Position numbers and translations under genes: made by a program
Shown: in pieces, positions 5,826 through 38,990 of the stretch
Numbering within the stretch: position 1 is the first letter of the stretch
How the letters are laid out: each line of letters starts with the position of its first letter
NCBI RefSeq assembly: GCF_007995095.1
Contig: NZ_VOPY01000001.1
Location: 1,265,001-1,329,000 of the forward strand
Origin: Flavisphingopyxis soli
GTDB lineage: Bacteria > Pseudomonadota > Alphaproteobacteria > Sphingomonadales > Sphingomonadaceae
DNA length: 64,000 nt
Direction: 5' to 3'
Notes under the pieces: model-generated
Databases searched by the model: none
What the model was told of the DNA's origin: nothing
The model's input: the letters and a program-made list of their open reading frames with translations, nothing else

Positions 5826-7154
5826 CTAGGCCCCGAAGACGCGGTCGAAGATCGTGTCGACGTGCTTGAAATGGTAGCCGAGATCGAAGTTCTCCTCGAT
5901 CTGGGCATCGCTCAGCTTCGCGGTGACGTCGCTGTCACCCTTGAGCAGGTCGAGCAGCGACATCTCGCCGTCCGATTCCCACACCTGCATCGCGTTGCGC
6001 TGGACCGCCTTATAGGCGTCCTCGCGGCTCATCCCCGCCTGCGTCAGCGCGAGCAGGACGCGCTGCGAATGGACGAGGCCGCCCATCCGGTCGAGATTCT
6101 TGCTCATCCGCGCCGGGTAGACGAGCAGCTTGTCGATCACGCCCGTCAGGCGGCCGAGGGCGAAGTCGAGCGTGATCGTCGCGTCGGGGCCGATGAAGCG
6201 TTCGACCGAGCTGTGCGAAATGTCGCGCTCGTGCCACAAAGCGACGTTCTCGAGCGCAGGGACGACCGCGCTGCGGACCATGCGTGCAAGGCCGGTGAGG
6301 TTTTCGGTGAGGATCGGGTTGCGCTTGTGCGGCATTGCCGAAGAACCCTTTTGCCCGGGCGAGAAATATTCCTCGGCCTCGAGCACCTCGGTGCGTTGCA
6401 AATGGCGGACCTCGGTGGCGAGACGCTCGATCGAGCCGGCGACGACGCCGAGCGTGGCAAAGGCCATTGCGTGGCGGTCGCGCGGGATGACCTGCGTCGA
6501 AACGGGCTCGGGAGTGAGGCCGAGCTTGGCCGCGACGTGCGCTTCGACGCGCGGGTCGATATTGGCGAAGGTGCCGACCGCGCCCGAGATCGCGCAGGTC
6601 GCGATATCGTCGCGTGCGGCGATGAGGCGCGTCTTGTGGCGGGCGAACTCGGCATAGGCCTGGGCGAGCTTGAGCCCGAAGGTGACGGGTTCGGCGTGGA
6701 TGCCGTGGCTGCGGCCGATCGTCGGGGTGTATTTGTGCTCTTCGGCGCGGCGCTTGATCGCGACGAGCAGCGTGCCGACGTCGTCGATCAGCAGTTCGAG
6801 CGCGCGTTTCAACTGGACCGCGAGACAGGTGTCGAGCACGTCCGAGCTGGTCATGCCCTGATGCATGAAGCGCGCCCAGTTCTCGCCCGAATGCGCGCCG
6901 ACCTCGTCGGAGACCCAGGTCAGGAAGGCAATTACGTCGTGCTTGGTCACCGCCTCGATCGCGTCGATCGCGGCGACGTCGATCACGGGATCGGTAGCCC
7001 ACCAGTCCCACAGCGCCTTGGCAGCTTCCTTGGGGACGACGCCGAGATCGGCGAGCGCGTCGGTCGCGTGCGCCTCGATCTCGAACCAGATCGCGTAGCG
7101 CGCCTCGGCTTCCCAGATGGCGGACATTGCGGGGCGGGAATAGCGGGGGACCAT
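5826..7154 (-). CDS. purB: Adenylosuccinate lyase
   Basis: PurB catalyses two fumarate-releasing steps of purine synthesis, acting on SAICAR and adenylosuccinate. The superfamily signature with the catalytic serine loop, [11 protein letters not shown], is present, as is the [14 protein letters not shown] histidine motif. From the ATG at 7154 the product is 442 residues and begins [20 protein letters not shown], matching alphaproteobacterial PurB; the frame extends further upstream without similarity. It is monocistronic by spacing, with a divergent EF-hand gene on the other side. Confidence 0.96.
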
Positions 7155-28170: not shown

Positions 28171-28260
28171 GGAGAGGTGGCAGAGTGGTCGAATGCGCTG
28201 CACTCGAAATGCAGTTTACGGGAGACCGTAACGTGGGTTCGAATCCCACCCTCTCCGCCA
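28171..28260 (+). tRNA. tRNA-Ser, anticodon CGA
   Basis: A 90-base tRNA with encoded CCA. The acceptor stem is GGAGAGG with CCTCTCC, the anticodon stem is CTGCA with TGCAG around loop CTCGAAA (anticodon CGA at 28205-28207), there is a long variable arm ACGGGAGACCGT typical of serine tRNAs, and the T-arm is GTGGG-TTCGAAT-CCCAC. Its last 17 bases plus one flanking base are repeated exactly at 38401-38418, marking it as the integration site of the adjacent element. Confidence 0.97.
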
Positions 28261-28261
28261 C
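28244..28261 (+). repeat. attL core of the tRNA-Ser element
   Basis: TCCCACCCTCTCCGCCAC at the 3' end of tRNA-Ser(CGA), including the encoded CCA. It is identical to the right-hand copy at 38401-38418 in the same orientation. Bases beyond the repeat differ on both sides. Confidence 0.92.
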
Positions 28262-28357: not shown

Positions 28358-29983
28358 ATGAAGGGGGTTCGGGGGCATCGATATCTCGCTCGTAGAGGCG
28401 ACAGATTGTATTATCGTAGGAGTGTGCCTGACGACGTTCGGCTCGCCTTCGGTGGTAGTGGCGAGGTCTGGAAATCCTTGAAGACGAGCGAATTGGCAGT
28501 TGCTCGAACTCGGTTGCAGAAAGCGAATGAGGCGTTCGAGACGCGCGTAGCAGTCGCTCGAAAAGAGGTCGCGCCTGCCAAGATCGCAACTGCGATCTAC
28601 GAGCCTACCAAGCGTGAGATTGAAGTCCAAGTTCTCAGTGCTTTTAAGAATCGGCTAATGCGGTTGCGGGGCGTAAATAAGCAAGACCCCAAGCAAATAG
28701 CTGCAGCCCGCATCCGGCTTGAAGACCTGAAGGCCTTTCGCCGCGCGGTTCAAGGCTCGCGGGGGCTCGAAAGCGATAGCGCACCTCTAGACGTTTACTG
28801 GCAGGGCGAGGCTCTCTGCGACCGGCTTGGCTGGTCGCTCGATCACCAGGGCGAAAAATGGCACACTCTGCTCGATATGGTAGCGCGCTCGCAGATTGAG
28901 GTAGCAGAGCGTGAGATCCAGTTTTTAGAGGGTCGCCCTGCAACTGTTTGCGATAGTGGATTTGGCCCCGAGGAATTGCTTCGTAACGAACGAGAAGAGG
29001 CCGACTGCGGCGCCACGTTCGGGCCACCGGTGTCACTCTCGACCTTGTTCGAGGAGTATCAGTTAGAGCGGAAGCCAAGCCCCGCGACCGTAAAATCATT
29101 CCGCGCTAAAGTTCGTTCGTTCATTGTTTTCCTCGGTCACGAAGACGCGCGTCGAGTGACAAAGCGCGATGTTGCCCTGTGGCGTGACCATCTGCTTTCC
29201 GAAGGCGGTGCAGCCGGTAAGCCGCTGAATGTGAAGACCGTTCGCGAGACGTATCTATCCGCGATCAAAACAACCCTGGCCACGGGTGTCGGAAGCGGAC
29301 AGCTACAAGAAAATGTGGCAAGTGGAGTGTCTGTCGCTGGTAAAAAGCGCGCGCCGAAGCTTCGTCCCAATGGTTTTACAGATAGCGAAGCCAAAGCGAT
29401 CCTTAAGGCAACGCTGGCGGAGCATCGAACCTCGTTGAGCGACGGAAGACGACTAGCGCGACGATGGCTGCCGTGGCTGTGTGCGTATACCGGATCGAGG
29501 GTCGATGAAATGGCACAGCTTCGCGCTGAAGATGTAGAACTGATAGACGACATATGGACCATCCGGATCACCCCCGAAGCCGGGGGCACAAAAGATGGAA
29601 GTGCGCGTGTGGTCGCGCTACACCCGCATTTAGTTGATCAAGGCTTCCCCGAGCTTACACGAGCTCGACGAGGCCCCATCTTTTATGATCCGGCGCTGGC
29701 TCGTGGCGGATCGAGTGCGAATAGGCAGTCGAAGAAGGTGGGGGAGCATGTTGCGCGATGGGTTCGTGGCGAGGTGGGAGTTACGGATCGCGGAGTAAGA
29801 CCAAACCACGGATGGAGGCATCGCTTTAAAACGCTTGCCCGCGACTGCCGCATGGTGCCGGAGATCAGGGATTACATTCAAGGTCACGTCCCTCGAACAG
29901 AAGGAGAAGCTTACGGTGACACTTCACCAAAAGCGACCCTTACAGAGATCGAGCGCATTCCTTGGTTTGATTTGGGGCATTGA
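28358..29983 (+). CDS. Tyrosine recombinase / integrase
   Basis: A 541-residue integrase with an N-terminal arm-binding region of the type with YLARRGDRLYYRRSVPDDVR (DUF6538-like), a core-binding SAM-like domain around residues 225-310, and a C-terminal catalytic domain. Catalytic residues appear as R381 (CAYTGSRVDEMAQLR), K412, H484 and R487 (NHGWRH), H510 (IQGH) and Y519. It lies 97 bases inside the element and is transcribed away from the tRNA. AGGAG precedes its ATG. It most likely catalyses site-specific insertion into tRNA-Ser. Confidence 0.93.
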   Translation: MKGVRGHRYLARRGDRLYYRRSVPDDVRLAFGGSGEVWKSLKTSELAVARTRLQKANEAFETRVAVARKEVAPAKIATAIYEPTKREIEVQVLSAFKNRLMRLRGVNKQDPKQIAAARIRLEDLKAFRRAVQGSRGLESDSAPLDVYWQGEALCDRLGWSLDHQGEKWHTLLDMVARSQIEVAEREIQFLEGRPATVCDSGFGPEELLRNEREEADCGATFGPPVSLSTLFEEYQLERKPSPATVKSFRAKVRSFIVFLGHEDARRVTKRDVALWRDHLLSEGGAAGKPLNVKTVRETYLSAIKTTLATGVGSGQLQENVASGVSVAGKKRAPKLRPNGFTDSEAKAILKATLAEHRTSLSDGRRLARRWLPWLCAYTGSRVDEMAQLRAEDVELIDDIWTIRITPEAGGTKDGSARVVALHPHLVDQGFPELTRARRGPIFYDPALARGGSSANRQSKKVGEHVARWVRGEVGVTDRGVRPNHGWRHRFKTLARDCRMVPEIRDYIQGHVPRTEGEAYGDTSPKATLTEIERIPWFDLGH

Positions 29984-30291: not shown

Positions 30292-33060
30292 CTACTGTCC
30301 GATATTTACGCCGCTGCGAGTGTTGCCTTCCAGCTCGACGACTCTCATGGCGCTGCCTCCTTCGGCCCGTAAGGTGTCGCCTACGCGTGCGAACTTCTCC
30401 GCGAGATGCCGAGTGAGAGAGCGGCTGGCAGTAGTGACGAGCACATTAGTTAAGCCCTCTTGTTCGATAGCTATTGATCTAAATACATCGATTAAACCCA
30501 CCCGATTTAAATCGTCCAAATGGGCCATGGGTTCGTCAAGAATAAAGCTTCCCCCGATGCTGCGAGCTCTCGCGAGAAATAACGCTAGCGCGAGGTCTTG
30601 GCGTTGACCGTGGCTGAACTCCGGTGGTTCGATACGTTCCGCCCCGCATCCTCCTGCCCAGTAAAGCGTCGCCTCTCCTAAGCTAATTTCGTCGATTACT
30701 CTATTGGAATGAAGACGTGAAAAGATAGCATTGACGGACGCCGTAAGGCCAGAAATTCGTGCCTTGCTCTCGACTGCCGCGTGACCGCTAAAGGCCAATA
30801 AGGCGTTGCTCGTTGACTGTAGCTGCGCCTGCAGTCGTTCGAGCTCTGACGATACTTCGCTCCTTTTCTCACGTTTGCGCGATGCGACGACTAGCCTCGC
30901 TTCAAGTTCCGCGCTAGCTCTCGCCGCCTCAGCTTCGACTTCTGCTTTCAGTAAAGATGCCTCGGTGCCCTCATCTTGGAGAGAAACCTTTTCCAGCGTT
31001 TCTCTGTTTATCGGTTCCGAAATCCCTAGGGCGCTCCAGCTCTGTGTAAGCACGTCCAGTCTATTCCGCGCCTGTGCCTCTTGCGTCTCATAAGCTCGTG
31101 CTGCGGCGTCGGCGGCTGAGATCTGTTGTTCCGCATCCTGGATTTGATACAGGATCGCGTTATGTGATGCCTCTAGCTCGCCAAGAGAAGCAGATGACGC
31201 GGCTAAGAGATTGCTTATGCTGGTCAGCGCTGCTGCACTTGCATCTTCTAGCGGGATCTCGGTGTCGAAGCTGACAAAACGCCCAATAAGGCCTTGCGCT
31301 TTATCTAAGCTCCGAAGAGCGTCGGCTAGATCGAGACTTATCAGAAGGCGTTGTAGGATATGGTCAGCTTCATCCGGAACGGGAGTGGTTAACCATCTTG
31401 CGGCGTTCTGCTCGAACTCTGCGCACGAGGAAATAAGTCGGGAGATTTCACCGGTGAGCACTTGGTGCGCTTCTTCTCGCGCTGCTGCTTCTACCTCCAA
31501 GGCGTTCTGAGCGGAAAGGTCTTTCTCGAGCACAGCAATTTGCCTCTCGATCGCCTCCAACGAAGCAGGCGTACGTTCGGAGATTGTCTCCAGTGCTCGC
31601 CGAAGTAAGTCGGTTGTCTCCCAATCGTGCCCGCACGCGGGACAATCCGTTCCATGAGCCTCATGCGCTGCTAATTCCCGAGCAAGCATCTGGAGCCTTT
31701 GCACTGGCTCTGCTTCCACCTCCAACCGGCGACGAAGCTCCCGAAGTCTTGCTTGGTCCTGGACCGTCGACCCGCGAGAAGCCTTCAACTCAGCGTCAAT
31801 TTCCAGCGCGGTGGTAGAGGTGATCAGCTCGCCTTGCTTAATCTCTAGCTCTGCTCTCCGCCTCCGGTATTCGGGAAGACCGAATGAGAGAGCTTGGACG
31901 GCGGCACGTTTAACCTGCCGCGCATCGTCCGATAGTTCCCAGTCTCTGGTTCGTGCAAAGGACTGGCTGAGCGACAGCTTTCCTGGTTGCTCAGCCCCAA
32001 GCCGCCCGTAATGCACGAGTACGCTTGAGCTAGCTGTTTTCAACTGCTCTCTGCCTTCAGCGAGGTCAGTGACGCGAGCTCTTAGGCCTTGCCGCCGACC
32101 TACGATAGAGGCGGCCTCCTCCTGTAGCTTGACAAGTTGAGGTCGGATTTTCGCAGATGTTGCCTCGGCAGCCTTGCGCCCATTCTCAGCTTCGGCAGCA
32201 TTTCTTTGAAGGTCGGAAATCTGAGGTATTTGCACTCGCAGCATTGCGATATTTAAGCGGCGCTGGGCGTACTGCTGACGTTGCCCTGCAATAGCGCCAA
32301 CAACCTGCTGCACTCTTGTCTCCAACGCAGCATCGGAGGATTGAAGATTCAACAGACGCTCGGCGGCTTCGATTGAGGCGCGGGCGGGCACCTCAGGAGC
32401 AGTCAATCCCGCACGTTCCAAATCGGCGAGCTCTTCGGTTATGCTGTCAAACGACGAAACTAATCGCCGCTCTTCTTTCTTAAGAGCTGTTTTTAACTTT
32501 TCGAGTTTGTTCTCAGCCTCAAGCAGGTGTCGAGTGCCGAGTAAATCAGAAAATATTTCTTGCCTCCGATCCTCGGCTTCAGGGTCTAATAGAATGGCTA
32601 ACGTGTCGGAGGATAAAAAGCGGGTACCCCGGATATACTCTTGTCTCTGGTGGATTGTGCGCTTGTAATGAGCCTTTCCTGCTCCTTCGGGGGCAAGTTT
32701 TTCCAACAGGTCAGACAGATTTACAGGGTGCCAGTTTCCATTACCCTCAGCCAGGCATAGCTCACCTATTCGTCGTCGAACGCGATGCACGGATCCATTT
32801 ATTCTTATATGTGCGGTAACCTCGGTCCGAAATGAGTTGTCGAACTTTGGACGTAGGATTGTTTCGTCGAAGCTTGGTCCAACGCATAGTCGAGCAACCT
32901 TGCCGGTGACTACCCACTCAGCGGCGTCGCAGATTGTCGTTTTACCGGTACCATTAGGAGCGTAGAGAACGGTGAGGGGAGATCTCAGATCAACCGGCAG
33001 CGGTTTAGCAAGGCCCCGGAAACCTTGAATTTCGATTTTGTCGATGGCCAGTGCTGTCAT
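30292..33060 (-). CDS. Rad50/SbcC-like ABC ATPase with zinc hook (putative defence system ATPase)
   Basis: A 922-residue SMC/Rad50-type protein. The N-terminal half-ATPase has Walker A APNGTGKTT (residues 34-42) after the Rad50-like strand IEIQGFRGL. Two long coiled coils flank a CPAC zinc hook at residues 473-476 (GTDCPACGHDWE). The C-terminal half has the ABC signature-like SHGQRQDLALALFLA (from ~816) and Walker B SFILDEPMAHLDD (D842, E843). Its start overlaps the stop of the middle gene by 4 bases. No Mre11/SbcD nuclease is nearby; the neighbours are a small protein and a nitrilase-fold protein, as in three-component conflict systems, not DNA repair operons. Confidence 0.9.
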   Translation of the reverse strand: MTALAIDKIEIQGFRGLAKPLPVDLRSPLTVLYAPNGTGKTTICDAAEWVVTGKVARLCVGPSFDETILRPKFDNSFRTEVTAHIRINGSVHRVRRRIGELCLAEGNGNWHPVNLSDLLEKLAPEGAGKAHYKRTIHQRQEYIRGTRFLSSDTLAILLDPEAEDRRQEIFSDLLGTRHLLEAENKLEKLKTALKKEERRLVSSFDSITEELADLERAGLTAPEVPARASIEAAERLLNLQSSDAALETRVQQVVGAIAGQRQQYAQRRLNIAMLRVQIPQISDLQRNAAEAENGRKAAEATSAKIRPQLVKLQEEAASIVGRRQGLRARVTDLAEGREQLKTASSSVLVHYGRLGAEQPGKLSLSQSFARTRDWELSDDARQVKRAAVQALSFGLPEYRRRRAELEIKQGELITSTTALEIDAELKASRGSTVQDQARLRELRRRLEVEAEPVQRLQMLARELAAHEAHGTDCPACGHDWETTDLLRRALETISERTPASLEAIERQIAVLEKDLSAQNALEVEAAAREEAHQVLTGEISRLISSCAEFEQNAARWLTTPVPDEADHILQRLLISLDLADALRSLDKAQGLIGRFVSFDTEIPLEDASAAALTSISNLLAASSASLGELEASHNAILYQIQDAEQQISAADAAARAYETQEAQARNRLDVLTQSWSALGISEPINRETLEKVSLQDEGTEASLLKAEVEAEAARASAELEARLVVASRKREKRSEVSSELERLQAQLQSTSNALLAFSGHAAVESKARISGLTASVNAIFSRLHSNRVIDEISLGEATLYWAGGCGAERIEPPEFSHGQRQDLALALFLARARSIGGSFILDEPMAHLDDLNRVGLIDVFRSIAIEQEGLTNVLVTTASRSLTRHLAEKFARVGDTLRAEGGSAMRVVELEGNTRSGVNIGQ

Positions 33061-33587
33061 CGCAGAAGCTCCAAAATTGTTGAAGCTTCGTTAGGCCCGT
33101 TTTTTCGTACAATTTCCCAAACGCCCAGCGCATCTTCATCCATATCTGGGTAAGATAGGTCTTCTGACGCGATAATGGGTTGGGGAAGAGCTATGACGGT
33201 GATTTTTTCAACGCCTTTCCAACTCAGATCATTGAGCTCTTCAAACCAAATGACGTGCTTTCGGCAAACCATTGTCGACTGCTCAATCTCACGAATAACA
33301 CCAATTTCGGAAGGTGGACTGGGCAATGCCAGAACCAAGTAGCCATCTGTCAACGACCCTCCCTCTTTCAGGGCTAGATTTTCGTCCAGCCAATCTTGTC
33401 CGGTAATCTCCGCCTCCTCTAATACGTGAGTTTCCACGCTGGCTACGGGCCAAAGGAGTAATGTAGCATAGCTACTTGTCCACATGGCGGCGCCATCGGG
33501 TAGAGGCATGTCGTGCGTCGGCTCGGCCCGACGCAGGCCCACCGTCTCACAGCGTTTACCTAGCTCGTGTAGGGGAAGCGTAATCAT
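33057..33587 (-). CDS. Small middle component of the ATPase-nitrilase operon, unknown fold
   Basis: A 176-residue acidic protein with no signal peptide or membrane segment. I do not recognise a domain. The N-terminal half contains hydrophobic strands (SYATLLLWPVASVETHVLEE; GYLVLALP), and the C-terminus (DALGVWEIVRKNGPNEASTI) looks helical. Its position between an effector-like enzyme and a coiled-coil ABC ATPase, with a 4-base overlap into the ATPase gene, matches the middle component (MC) of ABC three-component systems; that assignment is by context and length only. Confidence 0.6.
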   Translation of the reverse strand: MITLPLHELGKRCETVGLRRAEPTHDMPLPDGAAMWTSSYATLLLWPVASVETHVLEEAEITGQDWLDENLALKEGGSLTDGYLVLALPSPPSEIGVIREIEQSTMVCRKHVIWFEELNDLSWKGVEKITVIALPQPIIASEDLSYPDMDEDALGVWEIVRKNGPNEASTILELLR

Positions 33588-33601
33588 GACGTAAACTATC
33601 C

Positions 33602-35356
33602 TTAACGCAGGGCATCCGAAGCACGGGCCTTAACATTTTCGATTGTGGCAGCCCCGTCTGCATAGATCGCGGCAATCGTCCCCAGCGGTACGCACCTAAT
33701 TTTTCTAATGGATCGGGCTGCAGCCCAGTCGCCCTCTTCGGTAGGGGGTTGGCTAATGTCTGATTTTCGATCCGGAATGACGGGGCCAAGCGCAACATCG
33801 TCCGGGTTTCCGCGCGCAATCACCTGCAACGGTGGGTGTGCAGCGCCCTTGAGAGCCCAGTCCTGCAACGTTCTCATGATAGCGCGTCCGCTTAGGCGCG
33901 GATCGCGCCATACTAACACATTAGTTTCCCCTCGCCGCATCTGGCCCGCCTCAGCTGGGTCTTGTTGCCAAGTGCTCCCATCGAGGTCTGCCACAAAGGC
34001 GAGAGTGTTCAGCCCCTCAGAGAGGGCGTTCGCCACGGTAAAAAAATCGTCACCGTTCATGTCCGGATCGCGATCGACGCCTGAAATGATGCTTCCAGCG
34101 ATCAAAGATCCGCTAGGATAATTGCCTGTTTCCAAATGCGCTCTGATTTTTTGCAGGCCTGAGCCAAGACTGGATGAGAAATCTGCCTGTTGAGGGTAGC
34201 GCAGCGTGAACCTGTGCAATTCAAAATCACAAGTTGACATTCGTAGCGTGTCGTCAGTCTCGATCCGACCTGCATTTATTGGGCAGCAGTTAACCGCGCG
34301 CCAACGTACAAGCGAACTGATAGGTGTGTACGGTGGCCAAGCTACATCGCCACATACGACACAGGGACCGCTATCACGCAGTACTAGTCCATTAAAGTGA
34401 GGGGTTTGTACGGCGCGTCCGGCCGGGAACGCTTCGTGGCCCTTGTTAAGATCCGTGCGTCGCCCAAAGACGCCACTTAGTGAACGCCAGCGATCAAGCT
34501 CTTCCTCGGGGTGAAGTTTCCCGTATGCTTGATTGGCGACGGCTATAACCACAGCCTGATTACTTATTTGCGCGGCTACGTCGCCAATGGCGGTCTGCCA
34601 GTTTGGATCGAAGGCGGTGCTCTGCAAAAGCGAAGCTGTCACAAGGATAGGAAGGTCCAGTAGTTCGTCCCTGAGTGAACGTTCTAATCGGCTCTGGATG
34701 CTCCCATTTTCCATTCGCGGCCTAAGCATATCCGCGCAAATAAGGGGGAAAAGGCGAAGGTCTGAAAGTCTAACCTCTAAGAGCGCCTTTCCCTCTAGAA
34801 GATCTGGCTGCCCAAGAGCCTCATGCGATTGTTCAAGGTGATTTTTGACAAAAACGATACAGATGGGCGCCTCGTTAGGACGGTGGATCCAGCACCAACC
34901 ACCGTTCAGCCGACGATTTCCGGTGACCGGGCGCGCATCTTGATCCCAGGCCGCTAGCCTTTTTGTCTCACCGTCGTCGACGCCGAGCCATTCTTCAACA
35001 ACCGAGGCTGCGGTCATCCCAAAGCCAGCGATAAGTATAAGGGGTCTTGGCGACTGGCGAACGGCTTGGTCCACTCGGTGCCAATCCGCAGATGCCAACG
35101 CATACTCGGGAGCAAGGATGAGTGTGGGTGGCCGCTGAGGAATGAGATCGTCAAGAATTGGCACATGCCCCTCTCGACCCACCAATTCTTCAATCGTTGT
35201 AACTACGTCACTGCGGCTCTGATCGTCCGGTATATGCGATAAATCTACTGGTGCCACCTGCAGCAGACACGTAGCGAGGCGGCCACCCTCCCTCGCCGTG
35301 AAGTCCACTGTTACGACGGAATGTCCGTCCGTGTAATGAGTTGTGTGTTCGACCAT
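33602..35356 (-). CDS. Nitrilase-superfamily protein, probable effector of the three-gene system
   Basis: A 584-residue protein whose residues ~75-330 fit the carbon-nitrogen hydrolase fold. The catalytic triad is visible: E84 (TLILAPEYAL), K171 (ICIVFVKNHLEQ) and C207 (RLFPLICADMLRP). The typical later segment ILVTASLL...NWQTAIGDVAAQISNQAVVIAVANQAYG also fits. A C-terminal region of about 230 residues is unrecognised. It has no signal peptide. It is the first gene of the operon, 14 bases before the middle gene. Nitrilase domains occur in some antiphage proteins (for example fused to DRT1 reverse transcriptase), so a defence effector is plausible. The substrate is unknown. Confidence 0.75.
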   Translation of the reverse strand: MVEHTTHYTDGHSVVTVDFTAREGGRLATCLLQVAPVDLSHIPDDQSRSDVVTTIEELVGREGHVPILDDLIPQRPPTLILAPEYALASADWHRVDQAVRQSPRPLILIAGFGMTAASVVEEWLGVDDGETKRLAAWDQDARPVTGNRRLNGGWCWIHRPNEAPICIVFVKNHLEQSHEALGQPDLLEGKALLEVRLSDLRLFPLICADMLRPRMENGSIQSRLERSLRDELLDLPILVTASLLQSTAFDPNWQTAIGDVAAQISNQAVVIAVANQAYGKLHPEEELDRWRSLSGVFGRRTDLNKGHEAFPAGRAVQTPHFNGLVLRDSGPCVVCGDVAWPPYTPISSLVRWRAVNCCPINAGRIETDDTLRMSTCDFELHRFTLRYPQQADFSSSLGSGLQKIRAHLETGNYPSGSLIAGSIISGVDRDPDMNGDDFFTVANALSEGLNTLAFVADLDGSTWQQDPAEAGQMRRGETNVLVWRDPRLSGRAIMRTLQDWALKGAAHPPLQVIARGNPDDVALGPVIPDRKSDISQPPTEEGDWAAARSIRKIRCVPLGTIAAIYADGAATIENVKARASDALR

Positions 35357-35719: not shown

Positions 35720-36286
35720 TTGCTTATTGGCTACGCACGAACTTCGACATTCGATCAGGTTGCCGGGTTAGACGCTCAACTTAGCGCCCTCGAACAAGTT
35801 GGTTGCATTGAGCGTCTGTTTCGAGAGCAGGTTTCCTCCGTCGGCGAGCGAGAGCAACTCGATCAGGCACTGGATTTTGCAAGAGAGGGTGACGTCTTCG
35901 TTGTCGTCAGGCTCGACCGTCTTGCTCGCTCCACCACCGACCTACTTCGGATTATCGACCTTCTTGAGACTAAGGGTGTCGCTCTACGTGTTCTGGACTT
36001 TGGCGGGGCCGAGATGGACACGAAGTCACCTACGGGCCGCCTCATGATCACGATGTTCGGCGCGCTCGCGCAATTCGAGCGAGAGTTGATGCTCGTCAGG
36101 CAGCGTGAAGGAATTGAACGCGCCAAACGGGAGGGCAAATATAAAGGCAGGGCACCGACGGCCCTCCGCAAATTGCCAGCGATGCGTGCGCTTGCTGGAG
36201 AGGGCCTCACTCCTTCGGAGATCGCCAATCGCCTGCAGGTGTCTCGCGCATCCGTTTACCGCCTGTTGTCGGCGGAACGGGCATGA
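35720..36286 (+). CDS. Serine recombinase (resolvase/invertase family)
   Basis: A 188-residue small serine recombinase. The catalytic serine is S9 in YARTSTFDQ, with the conserved arginines in RLDRLARS and the ALAQFERELMLVRQREGIERAKREGKYKGR long helix leading to a C-terminal helix-turn-helix (LTPSEIANRLQVSRASVYRLL). The start is TTG at 35720. It may act on a nearby site or on the element itself. Its stop overlaps the next small gene (ATGA), so it heads a three-gene chain. Confidence 0.92.
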   Translation: MLIGYARTSTFDQVAGLDAQLSALEQVGCIERLFREQVSSVGEREQLDQALDFAREGDVFVVVRLDRLARSTTDLLRIIDLLETKGVALRVLDFGGAEMDTKSPTGRLMITMFGALAQFERELMLVRQREGIERAKREGKYKGRAPTALRKLPAMRALAGEGLTPSEIANRLQVSRASVYRLLSAERA

Positions 36287-36477
36287 GAGTTCAGGCGAGG
36301 CACTTCGCGACACCAGCTGGCCAATTCGAGGGCATTTTTGAACTGCCAAATGAGGGGCCGGCGGTCAACCTACATGCAACTGTTAGCCGGGAAATCACGA
36401 GCCAAATCTGCACCTGGTTGCAAGGCGCTGTCAGTAAGCTACACGCCGCCCTTAACTCGACCGACCTGCGACCGTGA
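36283..36477 (+). CDS. Small hypothetical protein between recombinase and HNH-like gene
   Basis: A 64-residue protein (MRVQARHFATPAGQFEGIFE at the start) without recognised domain, signal or membrane helix. Both ends overlap neighbours by four bases (ATGA with the recombinase, GTGA with the HNH-like gene). That coupling is the main reason to call it; similarity evidence is lacking. Confidence 0.45.
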   Translation: MRVQARHFATPAGQFEGIFELPNEGPAVNLHATVSREITSQICTWLQGAVSKLHAALNSTDLRP

Positions 36478-36965
36478 TCGAACCATACAGTTCAGTCCCC
36501 GCTGATGTAATCCTTGATCGGAAGGTCGAAGCTCTCATCATAGATGGTTTTCCGTTGCCACGTTGGGGTTGGCCGGTACCCGGATCGTACAATGGTGCCA
36601 CGGGAGCTGAAAGGATCGCAGTGTGGCAGAAAAATAACATCGCTTGGCGGATGGGATTGCTAGAAAGGCATTCTATCTGCTCTCTATGTGAGACGCGTCA
36701 AGCAGAGCACAGCCATAACGAATTATATTTTCGACCGTTCGCTCTGAAGTCGGTTTGTCGGTCCTGCCATACCCGCATTCATCGCCGTTTCGACAATCCG
36801 ACAAAGTGGCGCGCATTTCTCGATGAGACGGTCCGAGCCGATAACTGGGCCTGCATCCTTTTGCCCGACCAGATTAGTCGCGCAGAAGCCAAAGCGCTGT
36901 CACATCGGCCCGATTGGCTGGCTGCCCTTAAGTCGGTTAGCGAGACTTACGCGGCAATTCGGTAA
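36474..36965 (+). CDS. HNH-like zinc-binding nuclease-domain protein
   Basis: A 163-residue protein with a treble-clef-like metal site: C69-S-L-C72, H79/H81 in AEHSHNE, C95-R-S-C98-H99 and H103 (CRSCHTRIHRRFD). The spacing of C-x2-C, central His/Asn and C-x2-C-H is that of HNH endonucleases, although the catalytic order HNH is not textbook. The GTG start overlaps the previous stop. It may be a homing-type nuclease or a cargo restriction-like enzyme of the element. Confidence 0.6.
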   Translation: MIEPYSSVPADVILDRKVEALIIDGFPLPRWGWPVPGSYNGATGAERIAVWQKNNIAWRMGLLERHSICSLCETRQAEHSHNELYFRPFALKSVCRSCHTRIHRRFDNPTKWRAFLDETVRADNWACILLPDQISRAEAKALSHRPDWLAALKSVSETYAAIR

Positions 36966-36980
36966 ATAGAATGTCTATAG

Positions 36981-37481
36981 CACGGCGCATCCGTTGATCG
37001 TTGCTACGACGACGACATGATGCTGACGAATTGGGATTACATGCCGATGTTGCGCGTCGTGCTCGATGAAGCCCACCCCGATTTCGATAATTCCCGGCAC
37101 ACCAGCGTGCGCGACGCCAAGCACCTCTACGGCAAGGGCGACAAGGTCCATTGGTTCGAGGTGCCTGACAGCCGCGAAGGTTGGGCAGAGGCCGTCGAAC
37201 TGCTGGAGATCATGACCTACCAGAAGGTCTACCGCGACGAACTGCTCGTGCTCGACTTCTCGAAGGTCCGCGAGAAGAACGCTCCGATCATGGGGATGCA
37301 AGGTCGCCCGTCCTCCGGACCCGTGCCCCTTATGAGCGCACTGGAGATGATTACCCAGATCAAGGGCGCTGGGATGAAGCCGTGGAAGCAGGCGCTCTAC
37401 GTCGACCACTGGCTGGCGTTGCCTGTCCTCGTCGGCGGAGCGCGCCGCGCCGCTCGCATGAGCACGAAGCACTGGTCCTAA
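36981..37481 (+). pseudogene. Internal fragment of a phage-type (class II-like) ribonucleotide reductase
   Basis: An open frame from a TAG at 36978 to a TAA at 37479 encodes ~166 residues that, from memory of the family, match the middle of phage ribonucleotide reductases. It includes RCYDDDMMLTNWDYMPMLRV before the first ATG (37017), the segments LDFSKVREKNAPIMGMQGRP and SSGPVPLMSALE, and the conserved GG-x-RR-x-A stretch VLVGGARRAARMSTKHW just before the stop. Similarity begins before any start codon and ends abruptly, and the N- and C-terminal parts, including catalytic cysteines, are missing. It is a remnant of a full gene. The assignment needs a profile search. Confidence 0.55.
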
Positions 37482-37508
37482 CACCGTAAATGGCATACAT
37501 TTTAGAGT

Positions 37509-38228
37509 ATGGTTCAACTAATAGACATGACAGGGCAAGTTTGGGGGGAGTGGGTCGTTTTGCGTCGCGACGACAACAGAAATCTAGGTGGAGCTTGGTG
37601 GATTTGCCGATGCTCATGCGGAGTGGAGCGATCAGTAATGGGGCGCCACATGCGTACGGGAAATTCCGTATCCTGCGGACACCTTGCACACACTGCTGAT
37701 GGCCTGTCGGCCCGGTATCCTAGCGAGTATGGAACCTGGCGTATGATGCTCCTTAGGTGTGGCGACCCTAGAAGTAGTTCATATGCAAATTACGGCGCAC
37801 GCGGCATCAGAGTTTGTAGTCGTTGGCAAGTTTTCAAAAGCTTTTTCGAAGATATGGGCCCTAAGCCTAACTCTGATTTTCAAATCGACCGACTTGATAA
37901 CGATGACGGATATTATAAGCAAAACTGTGCCTGGGTTAGCAGAAGCGAAAACATTAGGAACTCCACACGGTCGCGATTGATTGAGCATGACGGCGAACGA
38001 CTGCCAGTAGTCGTTTGGGCTAATCGCCTTGGTATCAAGGCATCTATTTTATACGGCAGGTTACGTATGGGGTGGACGGAGGAGCGAGCGTTAACTCAGC
38101 CTGTTCGGATGAACCCCAACACAAGGCAAGGCCGCGCCGTCGGCCCAGCTCAAGGACCCAGGCCCGAGATTGCCCCTCGGCCTCGGAGGAAGGCGTTCTT
38201 TAGCGCGAGCAGAGAAGATCTTCTCTGA
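37509..38228 (+). CDS. Phage-type HNH/AP2-like DNA-binding endonuclease
   Basis: A 239-residue protein of a family common in phages and prophages. An N-terminal Cys cluster (CRCSCG... SCGH) precedes the signature YGTWRMMLLRCGDP, YGARGIRVCSRW, F-x2-F-x2-DMGPKP, and the core QIDRLDNDDGYYKQNCAWVS. A C-terminal DNA-binding-like repeat (VVVWANRLGIKASILYGRLRMG) and a basic tail follow. Such proteins are usually annotated HNH or homing endonucleases. It sits 27 bases after the broken end of the ribonucleotide reductase fragment, a classic host gene for homing endonucleases. Confidence 0.72.
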   Translation: MVQLIDMTGQVWGEWVVLRRDDNRNLGGAWWICRCSCGVERSVMGRHMRTGNSVSCGHLAHTADGLSARYPSEYGTWRMMLLRCGDPRSSSYANYGARGIRVCSRWQVFKSFFEDMGPKPNSDFQIDRLDNDDGYYKQNCAWVSRSENIRNSTRSRLIEHDGERLPVVVWANRLGIKASILYGRLRMGWTEERALTQPVRMNPNTRQGRAVGPAQGPRPEIAPRPRRKAFFSASREDLL

Positions 38229-38316
38229 CGATTAGAGAAATAACAGATGCCAATTGTCGCTGGAGGTTTGAGCACTGAGCTGATTGGGCCGAGAAAGGAT
38301 GCGATAGCTACGCCGC

Positions 38317-38339
38317 CTGCTACAAAAAGGGCTACATTA
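38317..38339 (+). repeat. Paired GCTACA repeats, right end (candidate integrase arm site)
   Basis: CTGCTACA, six bases AAAAGG, then GCTACATTA: the same bipartite sequence and spacing as at 28326-28348, in the same orientation, ending 61 bases before attR. Confidence 0.6.
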
Positions 38340-38400
38340 TGCGTGACCTGATTATGGCCATTGCCCCAAAAATGGCGCCTTTCTTGTTGGAAGGGTAGTC

Positions 38401-38418
38401 TCCCACCCTCTCCGCCAC
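38401..38418 (+). repeat. attR core of the tRNA-Ser element
   Basis: TCCCACCCTCTCCGCCAC, identical to bases 28244-28261 at the tRNA-Ser 3' end. It marks the right boundary of the element. Confidence 0.92.
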
Positions 38419-38990
38419 CGATCGTTCCAGACCTGTCTCGTCCCAGTGCGGTCATGGTGCCCTATGGTCGCCCGTGAAGGTGCGCAGGTTGCCTGGCGAC
38501 GTGCACGAGAAAGGGTCGAAAATCCGATAGGGATGGGCGTCATGTCGGAAATGAGGCGAATCGAATTTGAGGGCAATATTGGCGATTGTTAGCGCGGAAA
38601 AGGCCATCATGCGCAACGTTGCCCCGAGACTCCAATAAACCCCTTGAGTGCCCGGCTTCCTGCCATGACGTTTCCGATCTGCTCTTCCGCGTAAGGAATT
38701 CTATTTCCTTGCAGTCGCCACCCGCAAACAGCCCTGCTTATAGGCTTAGGCGGAACGCGCGAGGAGTTCTCCTGAACGCGGGTTTCGACTTTCCCGATCC
38801 CGTCTGACGAATGTGTCACAATGCTGGCACCAAACTGTCATCGGATTGTCTCACTCCCTGCATCGCCGAGTCATGTCGCGCCCCTAGTGCCCCCTCAAGA
38901 CCGGCGCAGGGGGCGATGGTCGTTATATCGTTTCCCTGCTTCCGGATCGCTAGTTCCCACTAACGCCGGCGCGGCCGGAGCGGAGATATC

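Follow-up and report, generated by a model that had tools for sequence, protein, structure and literature searches.

A piece of a ribonucleotide reductase gene that lies directly upstream of an HNH endonuclease-like gene, as is the case in Flavisphingopyxis soli, raises the question whether the endonuclease has invaded the reductase gene or whether both reached their present place as foreign DNA. Both possibilities had been offered in a preliminary description of the window, i.e., of the whole stretch of 64,000 nucleotides that was analyzed. The two neighbors are the following:

36999-37478, plus strand, fragment of a class II ribonucleotide reductase, codons ~186-345 (Pfam, PHROGs, NCBIfam, PDB chain, and alignments of relatives)
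37509-38228, plus strand, HNH2, a phage-type HNH endonuclease-like gene, 239 aa (phrog_374, E 7e-50; alignments of relatives; structure model)

As had been described, the ATG of HNH2 at 37509 is located 27 bases past the stop codon of the fragment, on the same strand.

The reductase fragment and its limits

The frame that contains the fragment runs from stop to stop (36981-37478, 166 codons), is closed by a TAA at 37479-37481, and has its first ATG at 37017, and thus is indeed open before any start codon. Its proposed comparison with reductase profiles and sequences was carried out and confirmed that it represents the middle of a class II enzyme. It matches PF21995 of Pfam (B12-dependent RNR insertion domain, E 6e-16), phrog_367 (ribonucleotide reductase, E 3e-21, positions 161-293 of 701 of the profile), TIGR02505 of NCBIfam (E 9e-15, at 53.9 bits below the whole-protein cut-off of 340.05), and residues 177-324 of the solved chain 1l1l, a ribonucleoside triphosphate reductase (E 5e-10). 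The best of the matches listed were a complete frame of Novosphingobium rosa (L017) with 77% identity to the fragment and a complete frame on the IMG/VR viral contig L097 with 72% identity. Only one other of 397 family genomes, the own genome included, has a reductase match (G316, a complete frame, 65% identity). Reductase matches are present in 940 of 50,697 phage records and in nine plasmid records, all of them below 60% identity. Judged by these matches, the fragment comes from the central part of a B12-dependent (class II) reductase, a type that is found in phages and in some bacteria. Two observations on relatives are added here. In G316, a chromosomal-looking class II reductase (L016, 7733-12652) adjoins a B12-binding radical SAM-like gene, as seen by eye, and the reductase of Rhizobium phage L338C (L006, 4887-6941) is annotated as three genes and aligns in several pieces.

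The fragment contains neither an internal stop codon nor a frameshift, and it breaks off abruptly at both ends. Upstream of ~36990 and downstream of 37478, its DNA is no more similar to the N. rosa gene and to L097 than background. Of the 43 columns that are invariant in its 40 closest relatives, taken from 81 distinct reductase sequences, four are changed in the window (N1H, G4S, G6D, and E147L), and three of these departures are within the first six residues of the frame. As a control, each of the 40 relatives was compared with the others plus the window, and each departs at 0-2 of 39-41 invariant columns. The first six residues (HGASVD) are therefore probably not reductase, to judge from their sequence. 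Because of the departures at invariant columns and the base-by-base drop of identity at both ends, the homologous piece was delimited to ~36999-37478, which corresponds to codons 186-345 of ~860 in the numbering of L097.

Accordingly, the fragment comprises only ~160 of ~860 codons and lacks the gene start as well as the C-terminal part. Three conserved motifs of L097, NC[AS]T (as NCAT at 164), NPCGE (at 495), and the C-terminal CxxxxCP (at 847), which we take to be the catalytic motifs of class II reductases, are all outside of the retained region. When the full-length proteins of N. rosa, L097, and G316 were compared with the whole window, the region 36981-37478 gave a strong match, all remaining matches had E-values of at least 0.019, and no second reductase part was found between 37478 and 39000. 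The host genome contains another frame for a large RNR subunit, with 680 aa. The GyrB/ParE-like protein of this host shares 78% identity with that of N. rosa, versus 63% and 62% with those of a Magnetospirillum and a Mesorhizobium, which points to a sphingomonad. As read from its sequence, the fragment cannot by itself yield a working reductase, and it is presumably dead and without function.

The divergence of the fragment was analyzed by codon position, with the first 18 bases left out. At sites where N. rosa and L097 agree, the window-specific changes at positions 1/2/3 number 9/7/23; the respective numbers are 8/12/27 for N. rosa-specific and 18/10/38 for L097-specific changes where the other two agree, and the split in the window does not differ from either (Fisher p 1.0 for both). 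Judged by this codon pattern, the divergence would mostly date from the time when the gene was still working, by a test that is weak in that up to about half of the changes on the window branch could postdate the capture (5% level). A captured and eroded phage segment had been one of the two original proposals. Capture of a foreign segment remains the best reading of the locus, but erosion was not borne out, because the piece, its truncation apart, is open and has the codon pattern of a working gene.

In a tree that covers 56 of 123 rows, the window groups with N. rosa (99/84) and then with L097 (95/90), and viral and bacterial rows are intermixed. The closest reductase in this tree, that of N. 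rosa, is encoded on a bacterial contig and not by a phage. Because of the intermixed rows, phage and bacterium are both possible as donor. A bacterial donor of the fragment would thus be compatible with the sequences; we infer that the donor was a phage and that the capture was fairly recent.

Introns and inserts in related reductase genes

If an endonuclease had invaded the gene, traces of an intron or of a second gene part might be expected. The suggested test with intron models was negative: no Rfam intron family was detected at the gathering level in the whole window or at E<=10 in 36200-38990, by a search that could miss a truncated or unfamiliar core. The two break points were also inspected in 265 reductase loci, with own copies left out and repeats of the same contigs included. 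All 255 loci that reach both sides align in a single unbroken piece across positions 176-196, and the same is true for 260 of 261 loci across positions 336-356, the exception being L011 with an insert at 335/336. No HNH insertion was found at either of the two break points of the window in the compared loci. The proposal that an endonuclease invaded the gene at this place was thus not supported, since neither an intron nor a downstream gene part was detected, and the relatives are unbroken with the one exception.

The general idea behind this proposal, that this region of reductase genes attracts inserts, was fair. Two viral loci, L011 and L298, have large inserts at 335/336, about ten residues before the right break of the window, and by eye these look like inteins. 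Large inserts were found near positions 164, 335, 450-525, and 650, while those of L168 and L170 could be placed merely between 393 and 623. In L358 (1837-6001), the reductase gene contains ~4.1 kb of extra DNA, at a point close to 451-463 in the numbering of L097.

Several specific arrangements were considered. An intron with an endonuclease in a reductase gene was rejected because no intron RNA core was detected and an exon match exists on the upstream side only. The fragment as an exon between two endonuclease introns was ruled out because the HNH gene to its left, HNH1, belongs to a resolvase module. For an intron-less, endonuclease-split reductase of the Aeh1 mobE kind, the complementary second gene part is missing in the window.

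HNH2 and the tRNA-Ser(CGA) island

HNH2 is an HNH-family sequence with conserved residues. It retains 18 of 19 columns that are invariant in seven relatives and departs at residue 137 (P to K), and from its sequence it may still be an active nuclease. The original label "HNH/AP2-like" was right in its first half, as the match to phrog_374 shows; the second half found no counterpart in Pfam, where nothing matched at E<=1, though some phage relatives are annotated as AP2. A sequence search against the PDB likewise gave nothing at E<=1. The structure model has a mean pLDDT of 76 and a pTM of 0.50. Among PDB chains it comes closest to PacI, an HNH enzyme, with a modest score (Z 6.2, rmsd 3.1, 79 aligned residues, within residues 63-155), and an unrelated chain follows closely with Z 5.6. 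The last ~36 residues have no match in the aligned relatives and were modeled mostly with pLDDT <50. Matches to HNH2 are present in 1,020 of 50,697 phage records, all below 60% identity, and, at E<=1e-15, in nine of 397 family genomes, the own genome included. A perfect palindrome of 18 bp is located at the end of HNH2 (38210-38227), and a search of the phage collection with the DNA of 38080-38420 gave no match at E<=0.01.

It had also been suggested to look for phages with the same combination of genes. The reductase loci fetched were drawn from the best 80 of 194 and the best 80 of 413 matches, and for these loci no phage was found in which a class II reductase is accompanied by a close HNH2 relative. 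An HNH2-like gene next to a reductase was present only in the viral contig L161, with a distant class II reductase and 33% identity of the HNH2-like gene, which lies directly 3' of the reductase (6503-7132) and has an in-frame stop codon. HNH1 was found beside a reductase only in Rhizobium phages, and a later set of 103 reductase loci contained neither HNH1 nor HNH2 beside the reductase.

The wider setting had not been part of the preliminary description. It consists of an island at a tRNA-Ser gene, with an integrase and a defense operon, and the left HNH gene belongs to its resolvase module. The following features were assigned:

28171-28260, plus strand, tRNA-Ser(CGA), the attachment target (ARAGORN; Rfam tRNA)
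28244-28261, plus strand, attL core, 18 bp, the tRNA 3' end and one base (exact repeat of 38401-38418)
28358-29983, plus strand, tyrosine integrase, 541 aa (PF02899, E 4e-5; PF20172, E 8e-13; relatives adjoin tRNA-Ser(CGA) elsewhere)
30292-33060, minus strand, SMC/Rad50-like ATPase (LmuB-like), ABC-3C/Lamassu-type (PF13476, PF02463; PADLOC LmuB, E 3e-33)
33057-33587, minus strand, ABC-3C middle component 1 (PF20289, E 2e-8)
33602-35356, minus strand, ABC-3C protein with C-terminal domain 3 (CTD3), effector side (PF20395, E 1e-60)
35720-36286, plus strand, small serine resolvase (PF00239, E 2e-38)
36474-36965, plus strand, HNH1, Cys4/His HNH-like, partner of the resolvase (phrog_2340, E 4e-6; resolvase upstream in 11 of 12 other places)
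38401-38418, plus strand, attR core at the right border of the island (exact repeat of attL; same layout in four other islands)

The island extends over 10.2 kb between the two copies of the tRNA-Ser(CGA) end, with the fragment and HNH2 at its right end, and with an integrase beside the tRNA gene and a duplicated tRNA end it is a tRNA-targeted integrative island. Integrase matches at E<=1e-40 were found in 23 of 249 family genomes, the own genome included. Four of the five other integrase places that were fetched (L230-L234) are beside tRNA-Ser(CGA) and one is beside tRNA-Tyr. All four tRNA-Ser(CGA) places have a second att copy 8-17 kb away, in which the variable base is that of the local tRNA end. 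Five relatives that had been retrieved for their tRNA flank served as a control; four of them have a single copy of the core, and L251, which belongs to the same genus, has a second copy with a weaker match. In the empty-site comparison, the left flank was recovered by DNA in all five fetched relatives (the left protein in three), and right-flank proteins in none. The ATPase, the middle component, and the CTD3 protein are encoded side by side, which makes 30292-35356 an ABC-3C operon of the Lamassu type. For the effector-side protein (33602-35356), profile matches of the Pfam/PADLOC type identified CTD3 and no N-terminal domain.

Of 298 family genomes, the own one included, 11 contain HNH1-like genes at E<=1e-8. 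Apart from the window itself, these genes occupy 11 places, and a further place in G332 was found by DNA, so that there are 12 other places in total. In 11 of these a resolvase of the same kind is encoded upstream on the same strand, the exception being L196. The gap between the resolvase end and the first ATG of HNH1, stop codon included, is ~180-196 bases in four of five regions (the genes overlap in the fifth) and 190 bases in the window. All five HNH1 regions that were read in detail contain a tRNA gene. The DNA directly 3' of the HNH1 stop codon in the window is, by eye, not common to any of the five. Because the resolvase-HNH1 pair recurs in other islands, HNH1 is island hardware and not a reductase invader, and the left neighbor of the fragment is, as far as the sequences tell, the edge of a recurrent module beside changing content. 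The pair was seen in L201-L205, L230-L232, and L235-L238, with a tRNA gene near most fetched regions and varying downstream genes. Among the papers listed by a literature search that covered few subscription titles, none dealt with this pair or with the arrangement in the window.

The slot between HNH1 and attR has different contents in two other tRNA-Ser(CGA) islands, L231 and L232, namely, HNH genes of other families (L231, 11570-12616; L232, 2779-3330), a reverse transcriptase-like gene (L232, 4988-6097), and unnamed genes. Such variable contents therefore fit a joint as well as a separate capture of the fragment and HNH2. HNH1 relatives were absent from viral contigs and present in only five of 50,697 phage records, four of which represent three Rhizobium phages (L338C is recorded twice). 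These three phages also carry a class II reductase, 1.6-1.7 kb upstream of the HNH1 relative, a proximity that might be a coincidence and is unexplained. Over ~104 residues, HNH1 of the window is 41-55% identical to five island copies and 45-47% identical to two phage copies; because these ranges overlap as measured, identity does not decide between an island and a phage origin.

Origin of the fragment and comparison with known systems

The reading that we prefer is that the fragment and HNH2 form one foreign stretch that was captured as passenger cargo of the island, the reductase part being dead, and we regard it as evenly balanced between right and wrong. The reductase middle and the adjacent HNH2 would have arrived as a single stretch of foreign DNA, which would have entered by recombination the variable slot that has the resolvase-HNH1 pair on one side and attR on the other. 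Capture is favored by the abrupt ends, the missing catalytic parts, the att duplication, and the pairing of HNH1 with a resolvase elsewhere, and also by the wide distribution of HNH2-type genes in phages. That the two genes came together we infer from their spacing and strand alone; the failure to find a phage with the reductase and a close HNH2 relative, L161 being the sole and distant case, speaks against it, as does the GC content of 0.62 for the fragment versus 0.51 for the HNH2 core. The difference in GC content would be more easily accommodated if both had been acquired separately and had become neighbors by chance in a gene-collecting slot, for which the different genes in the slots of L231 and L232 provide parallels. 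However, the gap of 27 bases is tight and the strand is identical, and separate acquisition appears rather unlikely to us. A sharper form of the joint capture would be an invasion by HNH2 that took place in a phage, at the KHWS|D codons of its reductase gene, either borne by an intron or intron-less like mobE of Aeh1, with a later uptake of a part of the split gene by the island. It would account for a reductase frame that ends just before HNH2, the inserts of L011 and L298 are only ~10 residues upstream, and introns, inteins, or endonucleases frequently interrupt the RNR genes of phages, according to the available part of one source (PMC3653736). Yet nearly all relatives are unbroken across 336-356, with the one exception having its insert at 335/336, and neither an Rfam intron nor a reductase part downstream of HNH2 was detected, which makes this variant quite improbable.

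The Rhizobium phages open a further route, by which HNH1, the reductase piece, and HNH2 would all stem from one phage of the RHph_I4/P11VFA/L338C kind. Four of the five phage records with an HNH1 relative, from three phages, carry this reductase in the vicinity, but the gene order is reversed in them, HNH1 is paired with a resolvase at similar spacing in nearly all of its other places, and the identities of HNH1 do not decide; we therefore deem an origin from one phage very unlikely. Lastly, HNH2 could be a phage-derived endonuclease that is kept as island cargo and cleaves, in phages that infect the host, their class II reductase gene, in which case the fragment would be a trace of a former homing site or a one-sided repair template at it. 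Interference between phages by an endonuclease has been described for gp210 of PhiPA3 against PhiKZ, in the part of the source at hand (PMC11620839). For HNH2 we consider such a role highly improbable. If it were nevertheless to cut phage reductase genes, a bacterial island would employ a phage homing endonuclease for defense, and it would combine a Lamassu-type system with a weaponized homing endonuclease. With capture of one foreign stretch as the preferred reading, the tempting story of an endonuclease-invaded reductase resolves into cargo of a defense island, and the locus, in which a tRNA island harbors a truncated gene of phage type next to an HNH gene, adds one more case to a familiar kind. 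The resolvase-HNH1 pair beside variable genes in tRNA-side islands offers a testable lead on the change of cargo, and the family may merit a study of its own.

Several known systems can be compared with the locus. In Aeromonas phage Aeh1, nrdA is split by mobE without an intron, and nrdE of Twort contains introns, as given in the accessible part of PMC3653736. Here, too, an HNH-type gene directly follows a reductase frame, so that the locus is similar to a split of the Aeh1 nrdA/mobE type of which the left part is present and the right part is missing. In contrast to the split genes of both phages as they are portrayed there, the window has no second gene part and no detected intron, and it is situated in a bacterial island and not in a phage. 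The defense operon agrees with ABC-3C systems, which belong to the Lamassu superfamily, in having an SMC-like ATPase, a middle component, and a protein with the ABC-3C C-terminal domain 3, as far as these are covered in the available part of PMC10586767. With NrdJ/RTPR, the class II reductase represented by PF21995, phrog_367, and 1l1l, the fragment shares the stretch matched in 1l1l and the insertion domain, whereas the catalytic motifs, the gene start, and the C-terminal part of this enzyme are lacking. Integrative islands that target tRNA genes and carry defense cargo are a known kind of element, and the present island conforms to it with a duplicated tRNA-Ser end, a tyrosine integrase at the tRNA gene, and a defense operon within. 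It differs in that it adds the resolvase-HNH1 pair, which it has in common with other islands of the family.
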